Shown piece by piece: positions 9,244 to 21,748 of a stretch of 21,748 nucleotides of DNA. Source of the DNA: a virus; IMG/VR virus record IMGVR_UViG_3300048033_000323, positions 1-21,748 of that record, one strand, 5' to 3'. Under the pieces are notes generated by a model. It saw only the letters and a program-made list of their open reading frames with translations. It was not told the origin of the DNA and did no database searches. How positions within the stretch are numbered: position 1 is the stretch's first letter; every line of letters starts with the position of its first letter. The position numbers and the translations under genes were made by a program.

Positions 9244-12200
9244 ATGGGTGAGTTTGTACATGTCTTCCAAGCAGGGAGAATGAACACAGATCTAGACGAA
9301 AGACTTGTTCCAAATGGCGAATATCGAGATGCATTAAACTTAGATTTAGCAAACTCAGATAATGGTAATATGGGCTCTTTGCAGAATGTAGAGGGCAATT
9401 TGCAATTAAGGGGTAAACCTCAATGGAACGATAATTATATAGATTCTTTAACTAACCCAAAGTGCATAGGATCTTTTGTTGATGACAAAACAGATAAAAT
9501 TTATTGGTTTATAACTTCTACAGAAGCTGACTGTATTGCTGAGTATAGATTTGCAGGTGGCCAAATAAAACCAGTTATAGTCGACACTAATAACGTTCTA
9601 AACTTTTCTACACAGAACTTAATTACAGGTATAAATATAATAGACAATTTATTATTTTGGACAGACAATAACTCTGAACCAAAAACAATAAATATTGATA
9701 AATTTAAAAGAGGATCTGTAAACTTTGTAACTCACACTAAAATACCAGCTTACGATAGTGCGAGCCAAACATACAGCGCTAATTTAACAGGTAGACCTGA
9801 TTTTAATGAAGCAGATGTAACGGTTATTAAAAAGGCTCCTCTTACGGCGCTTACACTAGACATGTCAGCTAGCTCAAGAGGAAATAAACCCGGTACTGGG
9901 GCAAGTCCTGTACCTTATGGGGTGTACAATCCAACTCCAACATCAACCCCTCCTGCTGACGGCAGAATAAATTTTACTTATGCGCCTGATACAGGCACTC
10001 CTGAAGTTAGAGAATCATTACCCACTAGATATGATTGGGAAACCAATATAGCTGGAGATGCTGATTATTACGATGACACTAGTATAGAAGAGTGGGATGG
10101 TTATTTGCTTCTAAACTTTGCTTCAACAGGATTACAGTCAAACACTTGGAGAGTTGGAGATACCATTATTTTAACCGCGGACTTTACGGATGTTAACTTT
10201 ACAGACTATGAATATTCGGTTTCTATTAGGCTAGTACAGGCTTTAAACGGAGCGGGATTAAATTGGAAAGCTGAAATACAAGCTATATCTTCTGATATTG
10301 GCACCTTTATTGACAGCGGGAGTAATATAATAGAATTCACTTGGGAGGCTTTACTTGAAGAAGAGGACGCTATGTTTCAGAATATATTTCCTAGGTTCGC
10401 ATATAGATGGAAATTTATTGACAACGAATACTCTACGTTCTCACCGTTTTCTGAAGTTGCTTTTTTAGGTAGTGAATTTAGCTACGAGTCTAGGGAAGGA
10501 TATAATATCGGAATGATTAATACTATCCGCAAACTTGTACTAAAAGATATAAACTGGGGGCACGTTGATGTAGAAGAAGTAGATATTCTTTATAAGGAAT
10601 CTAATAGTTCCGCAGTATACGTCGTAGATACTTTAGTTAAAGATGAATCATACGATACATCTGGAAGCCTTATAACTGAATTTGAAGTTGAGACTGAATT
10701 AATAGGAGCTTTAGTAGAAGGTAATCAAATATTACGACCCTGGGATAACGTGCCTAGAAAAGCTCAAGCTCAAGAAATAATAGGGAATAGAATAGTATAT
10801 GCTAATTATTTACAAAACTATAATGTTCCAACCACTACTTTAACTTTAAGCTCTATATCTAATCAATACGAAATAGAAGATGTTGGCTCCCCTGTATTTT
10901 CTGTAAAATCAATGAGAACATACCAAGCAGGGGTAGTATATTTAGACAAGTACGGGAGAGAAACTCCTGTATTTACTAATAAAGAAGCGGGAACACAATT
11001 AAGCATTGCTTCTTCTAGTTCGTTTAATAGACTTATAGCTCAGCCAACAAATACTCCACCTAGCTTTGCAACACACTATAAGATATTCTTAAAAGAAACT
11101 TCTAACGAATACTATAATTTAGCATTAGATAGATATTATGATGCTGAAGACGGCAACGTATGGCTGTCTTTTCCTTCTTCAGAAAGAAATAAAATATCAG
11201 AAGAGTCATACTTAATAACAAAAAAGCAACATGACAATAATCAGCCAGTAACTTCATTATCAAGATATAGAGTCTTATCTATATCTGATGAGGCGCCTGA
11301 TTTTATAAAGACTGTAGACAAGCCTTTGTCTTCTGCTGGGGTAGAAAATAATTCAATAATAGTTTCTGGGGCTTTGGCACTGTCATTTATAGGCCCAAAT
11401 CCCGCTTCTGATCCTGATTTTGGTCCTAAATTTAATGGGAACAAAGTTACTTTTTCTTTAGGTAATTTTGTTTCTCAAACATACGACGTGCAGTTATCTA
11501 GAGTGGTTAGCCAACCTACACAGTCAACAACCCTTTATGAGTTAACTTTAAACAGAGGTTTAGGTTCAGATGCTGAATTTTTAACAAACGTATCAGTTGG
11601 AAGTGTTTTTAATATAAATATTTTTGAAGATAAATTGGAAACAAAACCGGAATATCAAGGTAGATTTTTTGTAAAAATACCCAGAGATTTTTCTTTTGAT
11701 TCTAACATAATGGATTCATTTCAAGCGCTAGATCCAGAATATTCTGTATTAGGAGTGCAGGATTTTACATTAAATGGCGGAGAAACCACTTATGCAAGTG
11801 ATGGTAATTATGGTCCTTACTGGATTGATTGGGGTAATGCATTTGGAGGCGGAACCAAAACTTATGTAGCCGGCAGGGATAATTGGATGGATGGCAGGCC
11901 TTTTGCAAGCCCAAGTCCTCCTGATGGGCCTATAGGTTCTTTCATAAATAATCCTGAACCAGATGGGACAATCTTTTTTGGAAATCATAATCCTATTACT
12001 AAAGGCAGCGAATTTGTAGGTTTTAACTGGTTTGGAGTAAGAGGGCCTAATGACAATGTTCCTCCTTTGTACCTTAATTCAATGTTTGGAGCAGCCCCTG
12101 GCCCTTTAGACCCTGATGCAGAAGCAGGCAGGACGTCTAGAGTAGTAACTCCTGATGGGTTTTTAACAACGGGAGCTTCCATAAGGTTTTTAAAAATTGA

Positions 12201-15200
12201 TGATGGAACTGAATCAGAAGTATATATTATAAGTAAGGCTCAAGGGTATTGGAACAGAAGAAGTACGGGCAGCGCAGAAGGACAAAGACGAAATTTTAGG
12301 TACACTATTTTGTTAGAATTAGACAGACCTGTCACAGAAAGTTGGGCACCTGATCCTAGTGATAACTATGCTACTATGTTAGCTGCCGCTACTAATATAG
12401 CTATTCAAGCTGTAAAGCCGGTTGTTCCAGTAGGAAATAGGCTTCTTACATCTAATAACCCAGCTATATTTGAAACGGAACCTAAAGAAGCTGTAGATCT
12501 AGATTTATATTATCAAGCAAGTAATGCGCTGCCTATATCTGGGTACAATGATCCGGTGGAGCTTAATTGGTATAACTGTTTTAGTTTTGGTAATGGAGTA
12601 GAGTCAAACAGGGTTAGAGATGATTTTAATGCAGTTACGATGGATAAAGGAGCTACTGTGTCTTCCATATTAGCGGATCCTTATGGGGAAGAGAGAAGAG
12701 GAAGTGGCTATATATTTTCTCAAATATACAATTCTACATCGGGAATAAATAGATTAAACCAGTTTATACAGGCATTACCTATAACAAAGGATCTTAATCC
12801 TATATATGGCACTATTCAAAAGCTACATGCTAGAGACACCGATCTTATAACTTTATGTGAAGATAAATGTTTTAGAGTATTAGCTAATAAGGATGCTTTA
12901 TTCAATGCTGATGGAAATGCTAATGTAACTTCTAATACCAATGTATTAGGTCAAGCTACTCCCTATGCTGGTGAGTTTGGTATATCTAAAAACCCGGAGT
13001 CTTTTGCTGACTATGGGTTTAGGTTGTATTTTACAGACAAGAGCAGAGGCACAGTATTGAGGTTATCTAGAGATGGATTAACAGAAATATCAAGTAAGGG
13101 AATGGGTGATTTCTTTGCGGATAATTTAAAAGCAAACAATAAACTAATAGGATCTTACGATGCCGACAAGGGCTTATACAATTTAACCCTAGTCAATCTT
13201 ACTTCCGATTGGCAAACTAAGTTTAATCCTATTCAAGCGGACAACTTAGCTATTGCTTGTGAAGACAATATACAAAACCCGCCTGATCAAGAAAATTATA
13301 TAGGTACCACCGTATCTTTTAAAGAATCCGTAGATGGCTGGACTAGTAGAAAATCATTCATTCCTGAATCGGGAGTTTCTTTAAATGACAGGTATTTTAC
13401 GTTTAAAGATGGGTTAATGTGGGCTCACAATGAAAATTCTATATATAATAACTTTTACGGGGAACAATACATAAGTTCCTTCAATGTTCTTATTAATGAA
13501 CTGCCTAATGTTGTTAAAGCTTATACTGCTTTAAATTACACAGGAACTAAGTCTAGAGTTCTAGAGTATGAAAAAGCAAACAGCAATAAATGGTATTCTA
13601 TAGCTGAGGTTAATGCAGAGAGTTGGTTGCCAACATCCTTAAGAATAAAAAACCCGGGCTGGTATGTAAACTATATAAGAACAAATCTAGAAGGGGGAGA
13701 AGTAAAAGAGTTTGAAGATAAAGAAGGTAAGTACTTTAATTATATAAAAGCATTAGCCGTATGCGATGAAGCTTTTGGTTTGGGAACACCTACATCAACA
13801 ACATCAGATCCGCAGAGTTATTTATTAACTACGTTTATAGATCTTAGCTGTAGCAATACTGGATCATCTACTGAACCAGATGTAGATTTATTTTTATGGA
13901 CTAATTGGGATGAAATTATAGGTAATAACGATGTTACAATAGCTAATGAAACGACTGCTCTTTCCGCTAAATGTATAATAGAAGGATTCTATAATACCCT
14001 AAGTGATTATACTAACATAGCTAAATCAGGCGTTGAGTTTAAATATTTTGCTACAGCTGGATTAGTTGTAGGCACTCAATTGTACGATTATAACACTGAG
14101 CAACCTTTAACTTCTGCGGGATTAGGGCTTTACGTACCTAGTAATTTAGGGGAACCTAATGATTCTAGTTTAGACCCTGCTAATCTTGCTACTGTTCCAG
14201 ATAGTTACGATATAATAATATACAACTCCAGTGGGGTTATAACGGAAATTATACAATATAATACTATAGTAGCTTCATGTTCAGATCCTACAGGGCCTCT
14301 TACTTTTCAGATTACTACAACAGTAAATTCTACAAGTGTAGAGTTACCTTATGATGCTTCGGGGACATATTCAGGCACTATTAATTGGGGAGATGGAAAT
14401 ACCTCTGTTAATTCTTACGCTAATAGAACCCACACATATACGGCGGCGGGTGTTTATACAATAGAAATATCCGGTAGATCATCAAGAATAATATTCAGTA
14501 ATCTATCTAATTCTATAGCGGCACTTTATACTAAGTTGGTAAAATTTGGATCTCCTATGTATTTTGAAAGGTTAAGCTTTGGAGCTGGTTCGTCTGTTAT
14601 TGATGGGGCAGTTAACATGGATTTTTCTACGGTAGAAGATGTACCTAGTTTTACTCTTAATGCTCATATAGAGAATCTCACGAGAGGCTTATCTATTAAC
14701 AACTTTAATAATATAAGTAATTGGGATGTGAGTAATGTAATTAATATGGAGGCCGCATTCCGTGATAATACTTCTTTTGATCAGAACATCGGTTCATGGG
14801 ACGTTAGCAGGGTAACCGCAACGGAGAGTATGTTTCAAAATGCTGCAGCTTTCAATCAAAACATAAATTCTTGGGACATGAGTAGTGCTGTTAATGTAAC
14901 TACTATGTTTTACCAGGCAACGTCGTTTAATCAGCCATTAAACTCATGGAATATGAGTAGTGTTACTAATACTAGTAGTATGTTTAGGGATGCAATCGCT
15001 TTTGATCAACCTATTGGTAATTGGGACGTGAGTAATGTGACTAGCATGAGCTTTATGTTTGCAGCCAATAGCTCTTCTTCGCCTACTATATTTAATCAAG
15101 ATATAAGTTCTTGGGATGTGAGTAATGTAACTGTTATGCAGAAGATGTTTTTACATAATCATTATTTCAATCAGAACATAAATTCTTGGAATACTAGCAG

Positions 15201-16068
15201 CTTAACGTCTCTATTATGGACGTTTTACGACGCTCGTGCATTTAATCAACCTCTTAATAGCTGGAACACTAGTAACCTTAACAATTTAACATCCACATTT
15301 ACTGATGCTATTGTTTTCAACCAACCTCTAAATAGCTGGGATGTGAGTAGTGTGACCACTATGTACGGAACGTTTAATAATGCCGAGGCTTTTAACCAAC
15401 CTTTAAACAGCTGGGATGTGAGCAGTGTTACTACTATGGAAAGTATGTTTGAAGACAACCTTTCTTTTAATCAAGATATAAACTCATGGAATGTTAGTAG
15501 TGTAACTTCTATGAAAAAAATGTTTAGGGTCGCAACCGCTTTTAATCAGCCTTTATACAATTGGAACACTAGCAATGTTACTACTATGACTAGTATGTTC
15601 TCAAACAACAGTATATTTAATCAACCATTAAACACTCAATCAGTTACAGTTGGAGGAAGTACTTACACTGCTTGGGATGTGAGTAATGTGACCGATATGA
15701 GCAGTATGTTTAGTTCTTGCAGTGCTTTTGATGGTGATATAGTCAATTGGGATGTGAGTAGTGTTACTAATATGAGTAATGTGTTTTTAAGTGCGACTGC
15801 TTTTAATCAAGATATTGGCTCTTGGAATGTCAGCAGTGTTACTAATATGAATAAAATGTTTGAAAATGCTGATTCTTTTAATCAAAATATTAGCTCTTGG
15901 AACGTGAGCAGTGTGACTAATATGGAACGCATGTTTTATGATGTAAGTTCGTTTAATCAAAATCTAAGTGGTTGGAACGTTGCTAATGTAACAGCTTGTT
16001 TAAATTTTAGTGCACAATCAACCGGATGGACATTAGCAAAACCTAATTTTACAAATTGTACTCCATAA
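9244..16068 (+). CDS. Giant tail nozzle/muzzle protein with C-terminal PKD and BspA-repeat adhesin
   Basis: This 2274-residue protein is the largest in the window. Its start, with [20 protein letters not shown] and [19 protein letters not shown], is the signature I associate with phage tail nozzle (tail tubular B/muzzle-like) proteins. Beta-rich sequence continues to ~residue 1500. That core ends in [40 protein letters not shown] and [11 protein letters not shown] (to ~1503), which in relatives I recall as lying close to the protein end. Here ~770 residues are added: an uncharacterised module (1508-1679), a PKD-like domain (1686-1744, with INWGDG and [15 protein letters not shown]), a linker, and 17 BspA/DUF285 repeats (1824-2265). 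The extension probably projects from the tail tip and binds host surface glycans or proteins; that is inference. No signal peptide is present, as expected for a virion protein. No frameshift interrupts the fusion. Confidence 0.75.
14299..14475 (+). other. PKD-like domain coding segment
   Basis: Residues 1686-1744 of the giant tail protein show the PKD-type pattern: beta strands, then INWGDGN (WGDG at residues 1715-1718), then [15 protein letters not shown]. In bacterial surface proteins of Bacteroidota this domain commonly stands immediately before BspA/DUF285 repeats, as it does here. Confidence 0.75.
14713..16038 (+). repeat. Array of 17 BspA/DUF285-type repeats (coding)
   Basis: Seventeen tandem protein repeats of mostly 25 residues (75 bases), with consensus [16 protein letters not shown] followed by a short variable segment and AFNQP. 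Units start at 14713, 14788, 14863, 14938, 15013, 15103, 15178, 15253, 15328, 15403, 15478, 15553, 15628, 15739, 15814, 15889 and 15964. Unit 5 is 30 residues, with an SSSSP insertion. Unit 13 is 37 residues and carries the variant [16 protein letters not shown]. The last unit is degenerate. DNA copies differ at many synonymous positions, so this is an old array kept at protein level, not a recent expansion. Confidence 0.9.
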
Positions 16069-16086
16069 TTAATTAAAAAATAAAAA

Positions 16087-17580
16087 ATGGCAGAAGATTT
16101 AACATCAGAATTTAATTACACGTCTACTGTAGTTCAATACACTATACTAGAGGGGACTAATATATCTAGCCTTTATCCTACGGCAGTTATAAAAATAACC
16201 GCTAATCCAGGGTATACAGTAACAGCTGGAGATTTTTCTTGGAATGGCCCTTTAGCAGGTGTTACTAGTGTGGTTTTTACTCAAGACGGAGAGTTTGTTT
16301 TATGTACAGTTACGTATGACACAACCTCTGTAATGCCTGCATATAATGTTAATATAGGATTATGTATAATAGGAGATGCTGTTTTAGCAGCGGTAACTGT
16401 GGCTGGTACATTAACAAGTGTTGTCGATGCTAGCGTAACTACCACTACCCCGTCTGAAACCAACACTCCTTATAGCGCGTCAGGAACTGAAGGAACTACC
16501 TCTGGAACATTGTTCACTAGAACTTATACTGCTCCTACAGGTAGTTACTGGCCAGAAAATACTGCTCCTAGTATACAGCTTACATCTGGAGATCTAGGTC
16601 AATACAATATTACTCAAACGCCTACATACACGGCTAATAATGAGCTTACCGCTATAACATATACGGTAACTTATATATTTACTGACACAAATGTATCTGG
16701 AGATAAATTTGATATAACAATACCTAAAGTTGCAACTATTTTAGTGCCAGCAACAGGGGTTACATCGTTTACTGGACCGACTACAGGAGTACAGGCCAGC
16801 GGAACTAATTACGTTATGACAGTACAAGGTGCCGCAGGAGCTACGTATAGCATTTCTATGAGCGATGGGACAACTTCTACCGTTGTAGTTACTAATGCAG
16901 TACTAGGAGTTACAGGTAACGCTCAGCACAATTTTATAATTCCAGCAAATACAGGTACATCAAATATAACTTGGACAGCAACTATATCTGGAGATATAGA
17001 AACTGGAGTTCCTACGACAATAACGTTTATACAGTTATACCCAGTTGTTCCTTGCGGAGGTCCATTAGCGGATGCTCCTGTAAACGCAATAACCGATTAT
17101 GTAGAACCGTTAGAATCAGGAGGTGGATTACTTGCGTTTTTAGTTAAAGCAGGAGCTTCCACTAAATTTGAAATAATACACGGAGATGCTACTGGAACTA
17201 AAAAAGCTACTTCAGGAAGAATATTAACAGGATTAACAAATGCGGGACCTTTTGACAATGTAACTGGTACCGAACCATCTAATACTTTGCCTACAGATGC
17301 TCAAGCAAATGGAGGAATAGATCAGTATATTCAAAATCCTTTTAATCCTGTTAAAATGTCAACTAGACAAGGCGATTTTAATACTGATACTACATTTACT
17401 ATTCCAACTATGACAATTGGAGGGGAAACCTATCACCAAGTTTTATGGTGGGAATATACCGCAGCAGATTATACAGCACTAAGCAGGGCTACTTTAAGAG
17501 TAACTAATTCAAATGTGACAGGAACTATAGCAGCTAAAATGTTTAAGGTATGCTGTCCTGACGCAAATTGTACAACATAA
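16087..17580 (+). CDS. Ig-like, beta-rich putative tail adhesin
   Basis: This 497-residue protein is dominated by Thr, Val, Ser and Gly in alternating beta-strand patterns, consistent with several Ig-like sandwich domains. They are, roughly, residues 1-110 (with ITANPGYTVTAGDFSW), 115-220, and 225-325 (TGVQASGTNYVMTVQGAAGA). A distinct C-terminal domain spans ~330-497 (LESGGGLLAFLVKAGASTKF, then TIGGETYHQVLWWEYTAADY) and ends in a cysteine cluster (KVCCPDANC). It lies 18 bases behind the giant tail protein. A host-binding tail fibre or decoration role is likely; the C-terminal domain could be the binding head. No family is recognised with certainty. No signal peptide or transmembrane helix is present. 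Confidence 0.6.
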   Translation: MAEDLTSEFNYTSTVVQYTILEGTNISSLYPTAVIKITANPGYTVTAGDFSWNGPLAGVTSVVFTQDGEFVLCTVTYDTTSVMPAYNVNIGLCIIGDAVLAAVTVAGTLTSVVDASVTTTTPSETNTPYSASGTEGTTSGTLFTRTYTAPTGSYWPENTAPSIQLTSGDLGQYNITQTPTYTANNELTAITYTVTYIFTDTNVSGDKFDITIPKVATILVPATGVTSFTGPTTGVQASGTNYVMTVQGAAGATYSISMSDGTTSTVVVTNAVLGVTGNAQHNFIIPANTGTSNITWTATISGDIETGVPTTITFIQLYPVVPCGGPLADAPVNAITDYVEPLESGGGLLAFLVKAGASTKFEIIHGDATGTKKATSGRILTGLTNAGPFDNVTGTEPSNTLPTDAQANGGIDQYIQNPFNPVKMSTRQGDFNTDTTFTIPTMTIGGETYHQVLWWEYTAADYTALSRATLRVTNSNVTGTIAAKMFKVCCPDANCTT

Positions 17581-17591
17581 ATAAATAAACT

Positions 17592-17942
17592 ATGGCAGGA
17601 GCAACTCCTATACAAATAAACTTTGCAAACCATACCCCAATAGGATTAGATTTGCACGACATAATATGGTACTCTGACGCATCGACAGGGGAAGAAGTAA
17701 TGATGGGTCCAGTAACAACTATAGTAAACAATGACGACACTTCAACATACTATATAATAGTAAACGCAGCTTATGGAGTTTCAGCTCCCACAACGGACGA
17801 TTTTGTTTACTATAAGAAAAATCCAATAGGATATGTAAGCTCTTTAAAAGGATATTTTGCAGAAGCTCAATTTGTAAACACAGAAACTAAATATGCAGAA
17901 TTGTTTTCGGTTGGCGCTGAAGTATTTGAGAGCAGTAAATAA
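17592..17942 (+). CDS. Small putative virion protein, function unknown
   Basis: This 116-residue protein has a beta-rich first half (ATPIQINFANHTPIGLDLHD, then GPVTTIVNNDDTSTYYIIVN) and a conserved-looking C-terminus (SSLKGYFAEAQFVNTETKYA, then ELFSVGAEVFESSK). I recall similar C-termini in small structural proteins of marine phages, but no function. It starts 11 bases after the adhesin gene and precedes the ejection-protein set by 30 bases, so it may be a tail-fibre partner, a fibre assembly protein or a tail tip component. There are no hydrophobic segments or catalytic motifs. The start at 17592 is the only suitable ATG after the upstream stop. Confidence 0.6.
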   Translation: MAGATPIQINFANHTPIGLDLHDIIWYSDASTGEEVMMGPVTTIVNNDDTSTYYIIVNAAYGVSAPTTDDFVYYKKNPIGYVSSLKGYFAEAQFVNTETKYAELFSVGAEVFESSK

Positions 17943-19953: not shown

Positions 19954-21748
19954 ATGAACGAAGAAGCATTAAAGTACTCATTTGACCTATTTGTGAAAGA
20001 TGGCTATAATGGCACAATAGACGACTATAAAGAGCTTATTAAAACAAATGATAAGGCTAGATCAGTTTCTTATAATTTGTTCACTAGTGATGGTTATAAT
20101 GGCTCTGACACCGACTTTAATAATTTGATGGGTATAGATAATACTATAATGTTATCTGATGAAGAATTGGGAAAGACAAACGACTCTGCGAATGTGGATC
20201 CAAGTGTGGAGTCAGACACTATGGGATCTGGATTGGACGATGGTTTTTCGGAGTCTCAAGAAAAAGATACAGAAATTGAAAAATTATTCGGTAAAAACGA
20301 AGTTACTGATTTTTTCGGAGATATAGCTAGAGCTTGGCAATCAGGTACAGCTCAGGGAAGGTCTTTAGATTCTGCTATAGAAATATTTAAGAGTGGCAAA
20401 GACATGACTGAAGATCAGTATGTTGAATTTGTTGAGCAAGCTCGAGCTATGGAAGATGCCGGCCAAACAGATGAAATGATAGAATTTGGCAAGCAATATG
20501 CTAAAGATAAAGAAGAATATGGAAGTGTAGGCGGGTTTTTTACAAGTTGGTGGAAAAATCCAACAGTGATGACACAATACACTGCACAGTCATTAGCCAA
20601 TATGGTTTCTAGCGCAAGAAACAGTGAAGAAGCCGCTTTAATGGCTGCTGGAGGCGTTGCGACTGGGGCAGGAATTGGTTCTGCTATTCCAGTTGTTGGA
20701 ACTATCTTAGGAGGACTATCAGGCGGGATGGGGGCTTTGTCTGGAACTATGGAAGTAGGTTTTACTACTGCTCAGCTATTACAAGAAGCTGCGGTTGATG
20801 CCGGTAAAGATTGGAATACTATGTCCAACAAAGAGCGAATAGATTGGACTAAAGAAGTTGTAAATAATGAAGAACTATATAACGATCTAACTAATAAAGC
20901 TTTAAGAAGAGGTATCGCTATTGGGTCTATAGATGCAGTTACTGGAGCGCTAACTGGTGGTATAGGTAAAGTTGCTAGAAAAGGAGTTGCTGCAACAACT
21001 AAAAGTGCTCTTGCTGGAGCCGCTGAAACTGCAGCTATTGCTGCTACTGAAACAACTGGAGGATTAGCTAGTGAAATAGCTGGACAGTTAGCTGCTGGAC
21101 AAGAATTAGATGCTCAAGAAATACTTACTGAAGGATTTGCAGACAAAACGTTTACACTTGTAAATGTAGCTAGAGGAGGCTTAAAAGGGCCTAAGTATAC
21201 ATTGGAAGGTGAAAAAATGAATGGCAAAAGATTCAGAGAGGCTGTTCAAACAATGGACGATGCTACCGTTGCTACCGTGGATTTTGAAATATCTAATGAT
21301 CCTTTAATGGAGAAGATAATTCAGAACAGAAAACAAGATATAAAAATAGATCAAGAGATCGATGCCACTATAAGCGGAGTTGATGATAGAGCTGAAATAA
21401 TTAAGCTACAAAAAAAATTAAACAAATTAAAAGGGAACGACAGTGTAACTGCGAGCAATACTAAAAAAGAAATACGATCTCAAATAACTGAAATACAAGA
21501 TAAGTATAAAGGCTCTGAAGTTGATGTAACTATTAAGCAACGCCAAGAAGCAGTGGCTAAGGCGGTTGATACTAAATTTGAAGAAAACTTTAATAAATAC
21601 TATAAAGGGGCTAAGCAAGCCGCTAAAGATTTAGGTTTTAAAAGTACACAAGGCCCTAAAATTTACAAAACAACGAAAGGGTTTATATCTGCTATTGCTA
21701 AAGCCGAAAACTTGTCATTTGATGAAGCTCAAGAAAAAGCTAAAGGAG
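19954..21748 (+). CDS. Large internal/ejection protein (gp16-like), 3' partial
   Basis: An open frame of at least 598 codons runs from ATG 19954 to the window end without a stop. The N-terminus holds two copies of a ~20-residue unit: FDLFVKDGYNGTIDDYKELI (residues 10-29) and YNLFTSDGYNGSDTDFNNLM (40-59). An acidic linker (~65-105) and a helical stretch follow. A Gly/Ala-rich hydrophobic segment (~227-262, with GSAIPVVGTILGGLSGGMGA) could insert into a membrane, and a second Gly/Ala-rich region (~319-366) follows. The available C-terminal part is charged and helical (~400-560). The third, largest gene of the set suggests the inner-membrane channel or DNA-translocating ejection protein; relatives often carry a lysozyme or transglycosylase domain, but none is visible in this part. 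Start chosen because it lies 6 bases after the previous stop and includes the first repeat. Confidence 0.7.
   Translation, partial: MNEEALKYSFDLFVKDGYNGTIDDYKELIKTNDKARSVSYNLFTSDGYNGSDTDFNNLMGIDNTIMLSDEELGKTNDSANVDPSVESDTMGSGLDDGFSESQEKDTEIEKLFGKNEVTDFFGDIARAWQSGTAQGRSLDSAIEIFKSGKDMTEDQYVEFVEQARAMEDAGQTDEMIEFGKQYAKDKEEYGSVGGFFTSWWKNPTVMTQYTAQSLANMVSSARNSEEAALMAAGGVATGAGIGSAIPVVGTILGGLSGGMGALSGTMEVGFTTAQLLQEAAVDAGKDWNTMSNKERIDWTKEVVNNEELYNDLTNKALRRGIAIGSIDAVTGALTGGIGKVARKGVAATTKSALAGAAETAAIAATETTGGLASEIAGQLAAGQELDAQEILTEGFADKTFTLVNVARGGLKGPKYTLEGEKMNGKRFREAVQTMDDATVATVDFEISNDPLMEKIIQNRKQDIKIDQEIDATISGVDDRAEIIKLQKKLNKLKGNDSVTASNTKKEIRSQITEIQDKYKGSEVDVTIKQRQEAVAKAVDTKFEENFNKYYKGAKQAAKDLGFKSTQGPKIYKTTKGFISAIAKAENLSFDEAQEKAKG
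19981..20130 (+). repeat. Tandem N-terminal duplication in the large ejection protein (coding)
   Basis: Residues 10-29 and 40-59 align as [F/Y]xLFxxDGYNGxxxD[Y/F]xxL with a 30-residue period. I recall related DGY repeats at the N-termini of long proteins from Bacteroidota and marine phages, where they may act as a packaging or docking tag; that role is speculation. Confidence 0.7.

Follow-up and report, generated by a model that had tools for sequence, protein, structure and literature searches.

The nozzle, or muzzle, is usually taken to be the conserved gate of the podovirus tail, and host range is left to fibres and spikes. In crAss001 gp44 a crass-fold insertion forms the tip of the muzzle, and the same work is the basis for placing six copies of the protein at the tail end (PMC10172136). 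On crAssphage tail-associated proteins, tandem BACON repeats evolve by duplication and horizontal transfer, and a role in host binding has been proposed for them (PMC6949934). PARCEL domains are likewise described as modules that spread by horizontal transfer (PMC2996958), and DUF285/BspA proteins occur in jumbo phages and cyanophages, for example in vB_VhaM_pir03 (PMC7765460). DUF285 arrays are already known from phage genomes, with 114 records listed. A literature search that asked for DUF285 or BspA repeats on phage tails, or on the muzzles of crAss-like phages, did not find a fusion of the sort described below, though one may be reported elsewhere.

We analysed the IMG/VR record IMGVR_UViG_3300048033_000323 at positions 1-21,748, a virus record of 21,748 bases that is called the window here, and the muzzle gene with its parts, as well as the neighbours p497 and p116, lie on its + strand. 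A single open frame at 9244..16068 runs through 2274 codons without interruption and has full-length homologues in the contigs L001 and L007. Based on the profile matches, the comparison with gp44, the fold matches and the gene order together, the claim stands that its product is the tail muzzle (nozzle), with a C-terminal PKD-PARCEL fusion, of a phage related to the Cellulophaga and Flavobacterium podoviruses (Pervagoviridae, Elemovirus). The window phage is kin to known marine Bacteroidota viruses, and the classified relatives that were checked, Pervagoviridae and Elemovirus, are both listed outside Crassvirales.

The muzzle core, residues 1-1503 (9244..13752), matched PHROG_14478 (virion structural protein) at E=6e-129. 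Its crAss_MUZ_C domain, residues 1400-1501 (13441..13746), scored just under the Pfam cut-off of 27 (PF25729, E=2.4e-5, score 25.1); the orthologues from phi38:1 and elemoA match this domain at 1e-18 and 1e-17, well over the cut-off. With hhalign, the core aligned colinearly to crAss001 gp44, represented by one single sequence, in an N-terminal part (residues 13-426, E=1.7e-5) and at residues 1178-1435 (E=1.5e-5), with a probability of about 79% for each. The beta-propeller fold of nozzles was found towards the C-terminal end of the core, in the part that was modelled better, and the top three solved chains for this part were the crAss001 muzzle 7qol_P (Z 5.8), the SU10 nozzle (Z 5.8) and T7 gp12 (Z 5.0); these Z scores are modest, and the model, which covered residues 1061-1689, was poor outside the nozzle-matching part. 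Searched by sequence, the PDB held nothing significantly similar to the complete protein, to the profile of its core or to the module, and Foldseek gave no match at E<=0.001 for either model, that of the core part or that of the extension. The gene lies directly after the tail ring or tubular gene, an order that agrees with phi38:1, elemoA and crAss001. Elsewhere in the window, an unfinished ORF (19954-21747, 598+ aa) matched PHROG_32588, whose function is unknown.

A first-pass annotation of this DNA had described a 2274-residue read-through from a nozzle/muzzle-like core, ending at about residue 1503, into some 770 further residues with a PKD-like domain and 17 BspA/DUF285 repeats, and the open frame and the matches to PHROG_14478 and to the DUF285/PARCEL profiles confirmed this layout. 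However, the module start that it had set at 13744 does not hold, as residues 1504-1690 (13753..14311) form a domain of the muzzles of relatives, here named mid; the accessory module itself does follow, beginning at about nt 14312 and covering residues ~1690-2274. Comparison with related muzzles showed the mid domain to be common to many of them, with 2-3 copies in some, and to occur also in muzzles without repeats behind it; AlphaFold modelled most of it with pLDDT values of 80-94. It is followed by a PKD-like domain with the motif WGDG...HxY (residues ~1690-1748, 14312..14487), which AlphaFold did not resolve, giving a poorly predicted fold of low confidence. PF18911 matched this domain in the window at E=0.0017 (18.8 bits, under the cut-off of 27) and was present in 10 of 10 aligned relatives, with 6e-5 as the best value. 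A cap or linker (14488..14715), alignable with other phage PKD-DUF285 proteins, leads from there to the repeat array (residues 1825-2274, 14716..16065), which consists of exactly 17 DUF285/PARCEL units of the BspA type, most of them 25 aa long, and matched DUF285 (PF03382) at E=1e-135 and TIGR02167/PARCEL at E=8e-42. The array is predicted, with middling confidence, to be a beta-rich solenoid (pLDDT mostly 65-86). A finer label for the fold of the extension was rejected, as the matches found with VIA-align were mixed (a curli subunit, phage tailspikes and LRR proteins) and of low identity. Bacterial-type secretion to the surface is not expected, because the N-terminus of the protein is muzzle core.

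The first-pass annotation had also named an assembly error joining phage and bacterial DNA, and a C-terminus ancestral to all close relatives, as the two ways in which the apparent acquisition could prove false, and neither was borne out. The same fusion over 2280 aa was present in L001 and L007, which come from two metagenomes, and a version with the array split by a stop was present in L002 and L005, so the fusion recurs in independent contigs. An ancestral C-terminus was ruled out since PKD and repeats were absent from L003 and L069, with core identities of 86% and 76% respectively, in both of which homologous flanks continue on both sides, and from all other sampled muzzles outside the cassette-bearing group.

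Additionally, there is strong evidence that the cassette, residues ~1690-2274, passed recently between phage lineages, as the synonymous divergence collapses within it, and does so abruptly at about nt 14312. In the comparison of the window with L001, dS was 1.59 in the N-terminal core, 1.34 in the tip, 0.97 in the C-terminal core and 0.88 in the mid domain, versus 0.021 in the PKD-cap part and 0.104 in the repeats; values near or over 1 are saturated, and only the contrast between core and cassette is meaningful. The 5' edge of the cassette in this comparison was placed at 14308..14316, where differences are dense up to 14311 and are then followed by one (14448) before 14500. At the 3' edge, a 54-nt stretch over the stop codon, the spacer and the start of the next gene (16048..16101) is identical in the window, L001, L002 and L005 apart from its first and last border base, and it could have served as a recombination site. 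Slow evolution of the module in place of a transfer was ruled out, because it is the synonymous divergence that collapses as well. The dN/dS of the cassette was 0.37-0.9 and that of the conserved core parts 0.03-0.09.

Identity matrices and dN/dS delimited a further hypervariable, separately recombining segment within the core, at residues 667-1066 (11242..12441). The amino acid identity of this segment to close relatives was 0.52-0.84, compared to 0.82-0.94 for the flanking core, and, judged by the position of the insertion in gp44, it is probably the crass-fold tip. At the nucleotide level the window and L005 have the same type of tip (85%) and different types of cassette (67%), and the window and L001 have the same type of cassette (96%) and different types of tip (61%). 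The combinations are tipA/cassette1 in the window, tipA/cassette2 in L005, tipB/cassette1 in L001 and tipB/cassette2 in L004, the last of which ends within the cassette and could be chimeric. An independent assortment of tip segment and cassette is supported by this comparison of sequences.

The C-terminus proved variable also in the wider group. In a set of 68 non-redundant ORFs of related muzzles, the stretch behind the core measured 37-842 aa where the ORF was complete, and the tails were classed as short, mid-domain, PKD-PARCEL, Ig/cadherin-like (bacterial-type domains, Pfam Big_9 at 6e-11) or fusions to homologues of p497 or p116. Tail class changed at least 12 times on a tree of 65 cores, a quick tree with some long branches for which we assigned the classes ourselves. 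The conserved neighbours p497 (16087..17580) and p116 (17592..17942) are separate downstream genes in the window, and in relatives their homologues are fused to the muzzle C-terminus. For p497 this was detected by blastp (E 1e-9 to 5e-4) in nine muzzles (L079, L081, L082, L083, L095, L098, L102, L122 and L124), with L127 and L139 placed in the same class on tree position and general look alone; for p116 it was found in L104, L130 and L138. The C-terminus of p497 is itself swapped, with the N-terminal 323 aa conserved and a different end in L001 and L007 (613 aa; L001:16859-18697). In the muzzle tail of another contig (L072:13522-15507), possible propeller-like 'SSDYG.SF' repeats without a Pfam match were seen after two mid domains.

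The number of changes in tail class, the range of tail types and the neighbours found both fused and unfused support the muzzle C-terminus as a fusion site for exposed tail parts. For the crAss-related group as a whole we find it fairly likely that this C-terminus is a general modular slot, in which PKD-PARCEL, Ig/cadherin-like, duplicated mid, p497 and p116 parts alternate, fused or separate, and that cassettes assorting independently of the variable tip would give a two-part control of attachment. In the window protein the C-terminal slot after crAss_MUZ_C holds the mid domain and the PKD/17-repeat PARCEL cassette, and this architecture and the exchange of the cassette are shown by the comparisons above; we consider it probable that the cassette recombines independently of the tip and acts as an exchangeable adhesion or receptor-binding domain. 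In the mechanism that we propose, accessory domains of different kinds would fuse in the slot behind crAss_MUZ_C, and recombination, bounded by residue ~1690 on one side and the end of the gene on the other, would swap the cassette between related phages. From the crAss001 model we infer that the muzzle is a hexamer, which would display six solenoids externally at the end of the tail, towards its tip or its side, where they may bind the surface of the host cell or something in its vicinity as their ligand. Attachment is the most likely role of the module, and the swapping of domains would let the virus rapidly alter its binding target.

It could also be that the module binds particles, mucus, biofilm or other virions, not the infected cell, and in this way raises the encounter rate. 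PARCEL domains do reside in variable bacterial surface proteins (PMC2996958), and gut-phage proteins with Ig-like domains have been reported to mediate binding to epithelium and retention in the gut (PMC13370021). However, the second variable region of the muzzle lies where contact with the host is expected, and the exchange of the cassette looks like that of host-range modules, so that we regard such binding away from the host cell as rather unlikely.

The architecture had been called typical of Bacteroidota surface proteins, and indeed, of the 395 Bacteroidota genomes sampled, 70 encode PKD+cap+DUF285 proteins (E<=1e-20), often in very large ORFs. This frequency speaks for the first-pass proposal that the module was captured directly from the host, that is, from a surface adhesin gene of a Bacteroidota host, for use in mimicry or host-specific binding. 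However, in a tree of the PKD-cap part, for which the phage module had supplied the queries that retrieved both the viral and the bacterial set, the four muzzle modules grouped together as a clade (100/100) that fell among modules of other viruses (94/81), and the 31 bacterial rows formed a separate clade (99/88). The nearest non-muzzle rows were viral, though distant (path ~2), and the stem of the muzzle clade was long. PARCEL arrays were also borne on unrelated cores by about 100 viral loci, many of them overlapping or related, and on a muzzle core in this clade only. Because the PKD part groups with the PKD-DUF285 proteins of other phages, apart from the sampled bacterial ones, the tree gives no support to a direct capture from the host, which appears quite improbable. 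By the synonymous divergence, the latest transfers went from phage to phage. Given the phage-derived queries and the long stem, the ultimate source of the module may be either viral or bacterial. The best contig match, L059, is in a Bacteroidetes MAG and was considered as a bacterial copy; its PKD-DUF285 protein (L059:4459-6990) is phage-like with Thr/Pro-rich linkers, is probably encoded by phage DNA in a Bacteroidetes bin and was not counted as bacterial. On one viral contig (L248:75-9700) at least nine PARCEL ORFs of ~260-356 aa lie in tandem.

The array of L002 and L005 is interrupted after about three repeats at a site common to both (L005:15700-15730 in L005), where a short insertion introduces a stop codon and a fresh ATG, and the remainder is a separate downstream PARCEL ORF of 399 aa. 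The greater part of the repeats has no covalent link to the muzzle in these two contigs, which counts against the reading of the module as an adhesion domain on the muzzle. A programmed frameshift is unlikely at this site, as the second frame is closed by a stop of its own immediately ahead of the ATG, and the ATG lies in the usual A-rich start context of the phage. Both halves are open, with dN/dS values of 0.09 and 0.22 between L002 and L005, and look to be under purifying selection; for this reason the fused and split forms both seem to persist. That the array is in decay or merely carried along as a neutral passenger, with the split as the beginning of their loss, would fit the stop and restart common to both contigs and the close relatives without the module, but is very improbable given that the halves stay open at these dN/dS values, that the restart has the phage's own start context, and that the window has 17 intact repeats and L001 and L007 keep the same array open.

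If the muzzle C-terminus is a slot for adhesin cassettes, a single recombination in a core gene could shift host or surface tropism. Moreover, the transfer of a PARCEL module among phages, visible at the nucleotide level, connects a mobile repeat long known from bacteria with a defined viral carrier.

In comparison with the described systems, the window protein resembles crAss001 gp44 (PMC10172136) and the T7 nozzle gp12 in its position after the tail ring gene and in the propeller fold of its C-terminal part, and it shares with gp44 the profile similarity at both ends of the core and, by a match just under the Pfam cut-off, the crAss_MUZ_C domain. In gp44 the tip is the crass-fold insertion, and the C-terminal region aligned here is the propeller half. 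However, gp44 ends 38 aa past MUZ_C, whereas the window protein runs 773 aa further with mid, PKD and PARCEL parts. The phi38:1 gp97 and the elemovirus structural protein (Pervagoviridae, Elemovirus) are orthologous muzzles with the same gene order and ~31% identity, but have only ~120 aa past MUZ_C and no DUF285. With the bacterial BspA-family/PARCEL (DUF285) surface proteins (PMC2996958) the window protein has in common the 25-aa repeat and the architecture of a PKD-like domain with repeats; it differs from them in carrying the array on a phage muzzle, with a PKD part that groups with phage and not with the sampled bacterial copies. The DUF285 proteins of jumbo phages and cyanophages differ from the fusion in being annotated as separate surface-repeat or hypothetical proteins. 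A parallel for the attachment role is given by the Ig-like adhesins reported for gut phages (PMC13370021). The BACON arrays (PMC6949934) are similar in that a Bacteroidota-type repeat domain sits on crAss-like tail-associated proteins; unlike the present case, they consist of another domain and were described on tail proteins other than the muzzle, whereas here one intact cassette is exchanged. Host-type repeat modules on phage tails are of a known kind, and here one is placed on the muzzle, an unexpected protein for such a module.
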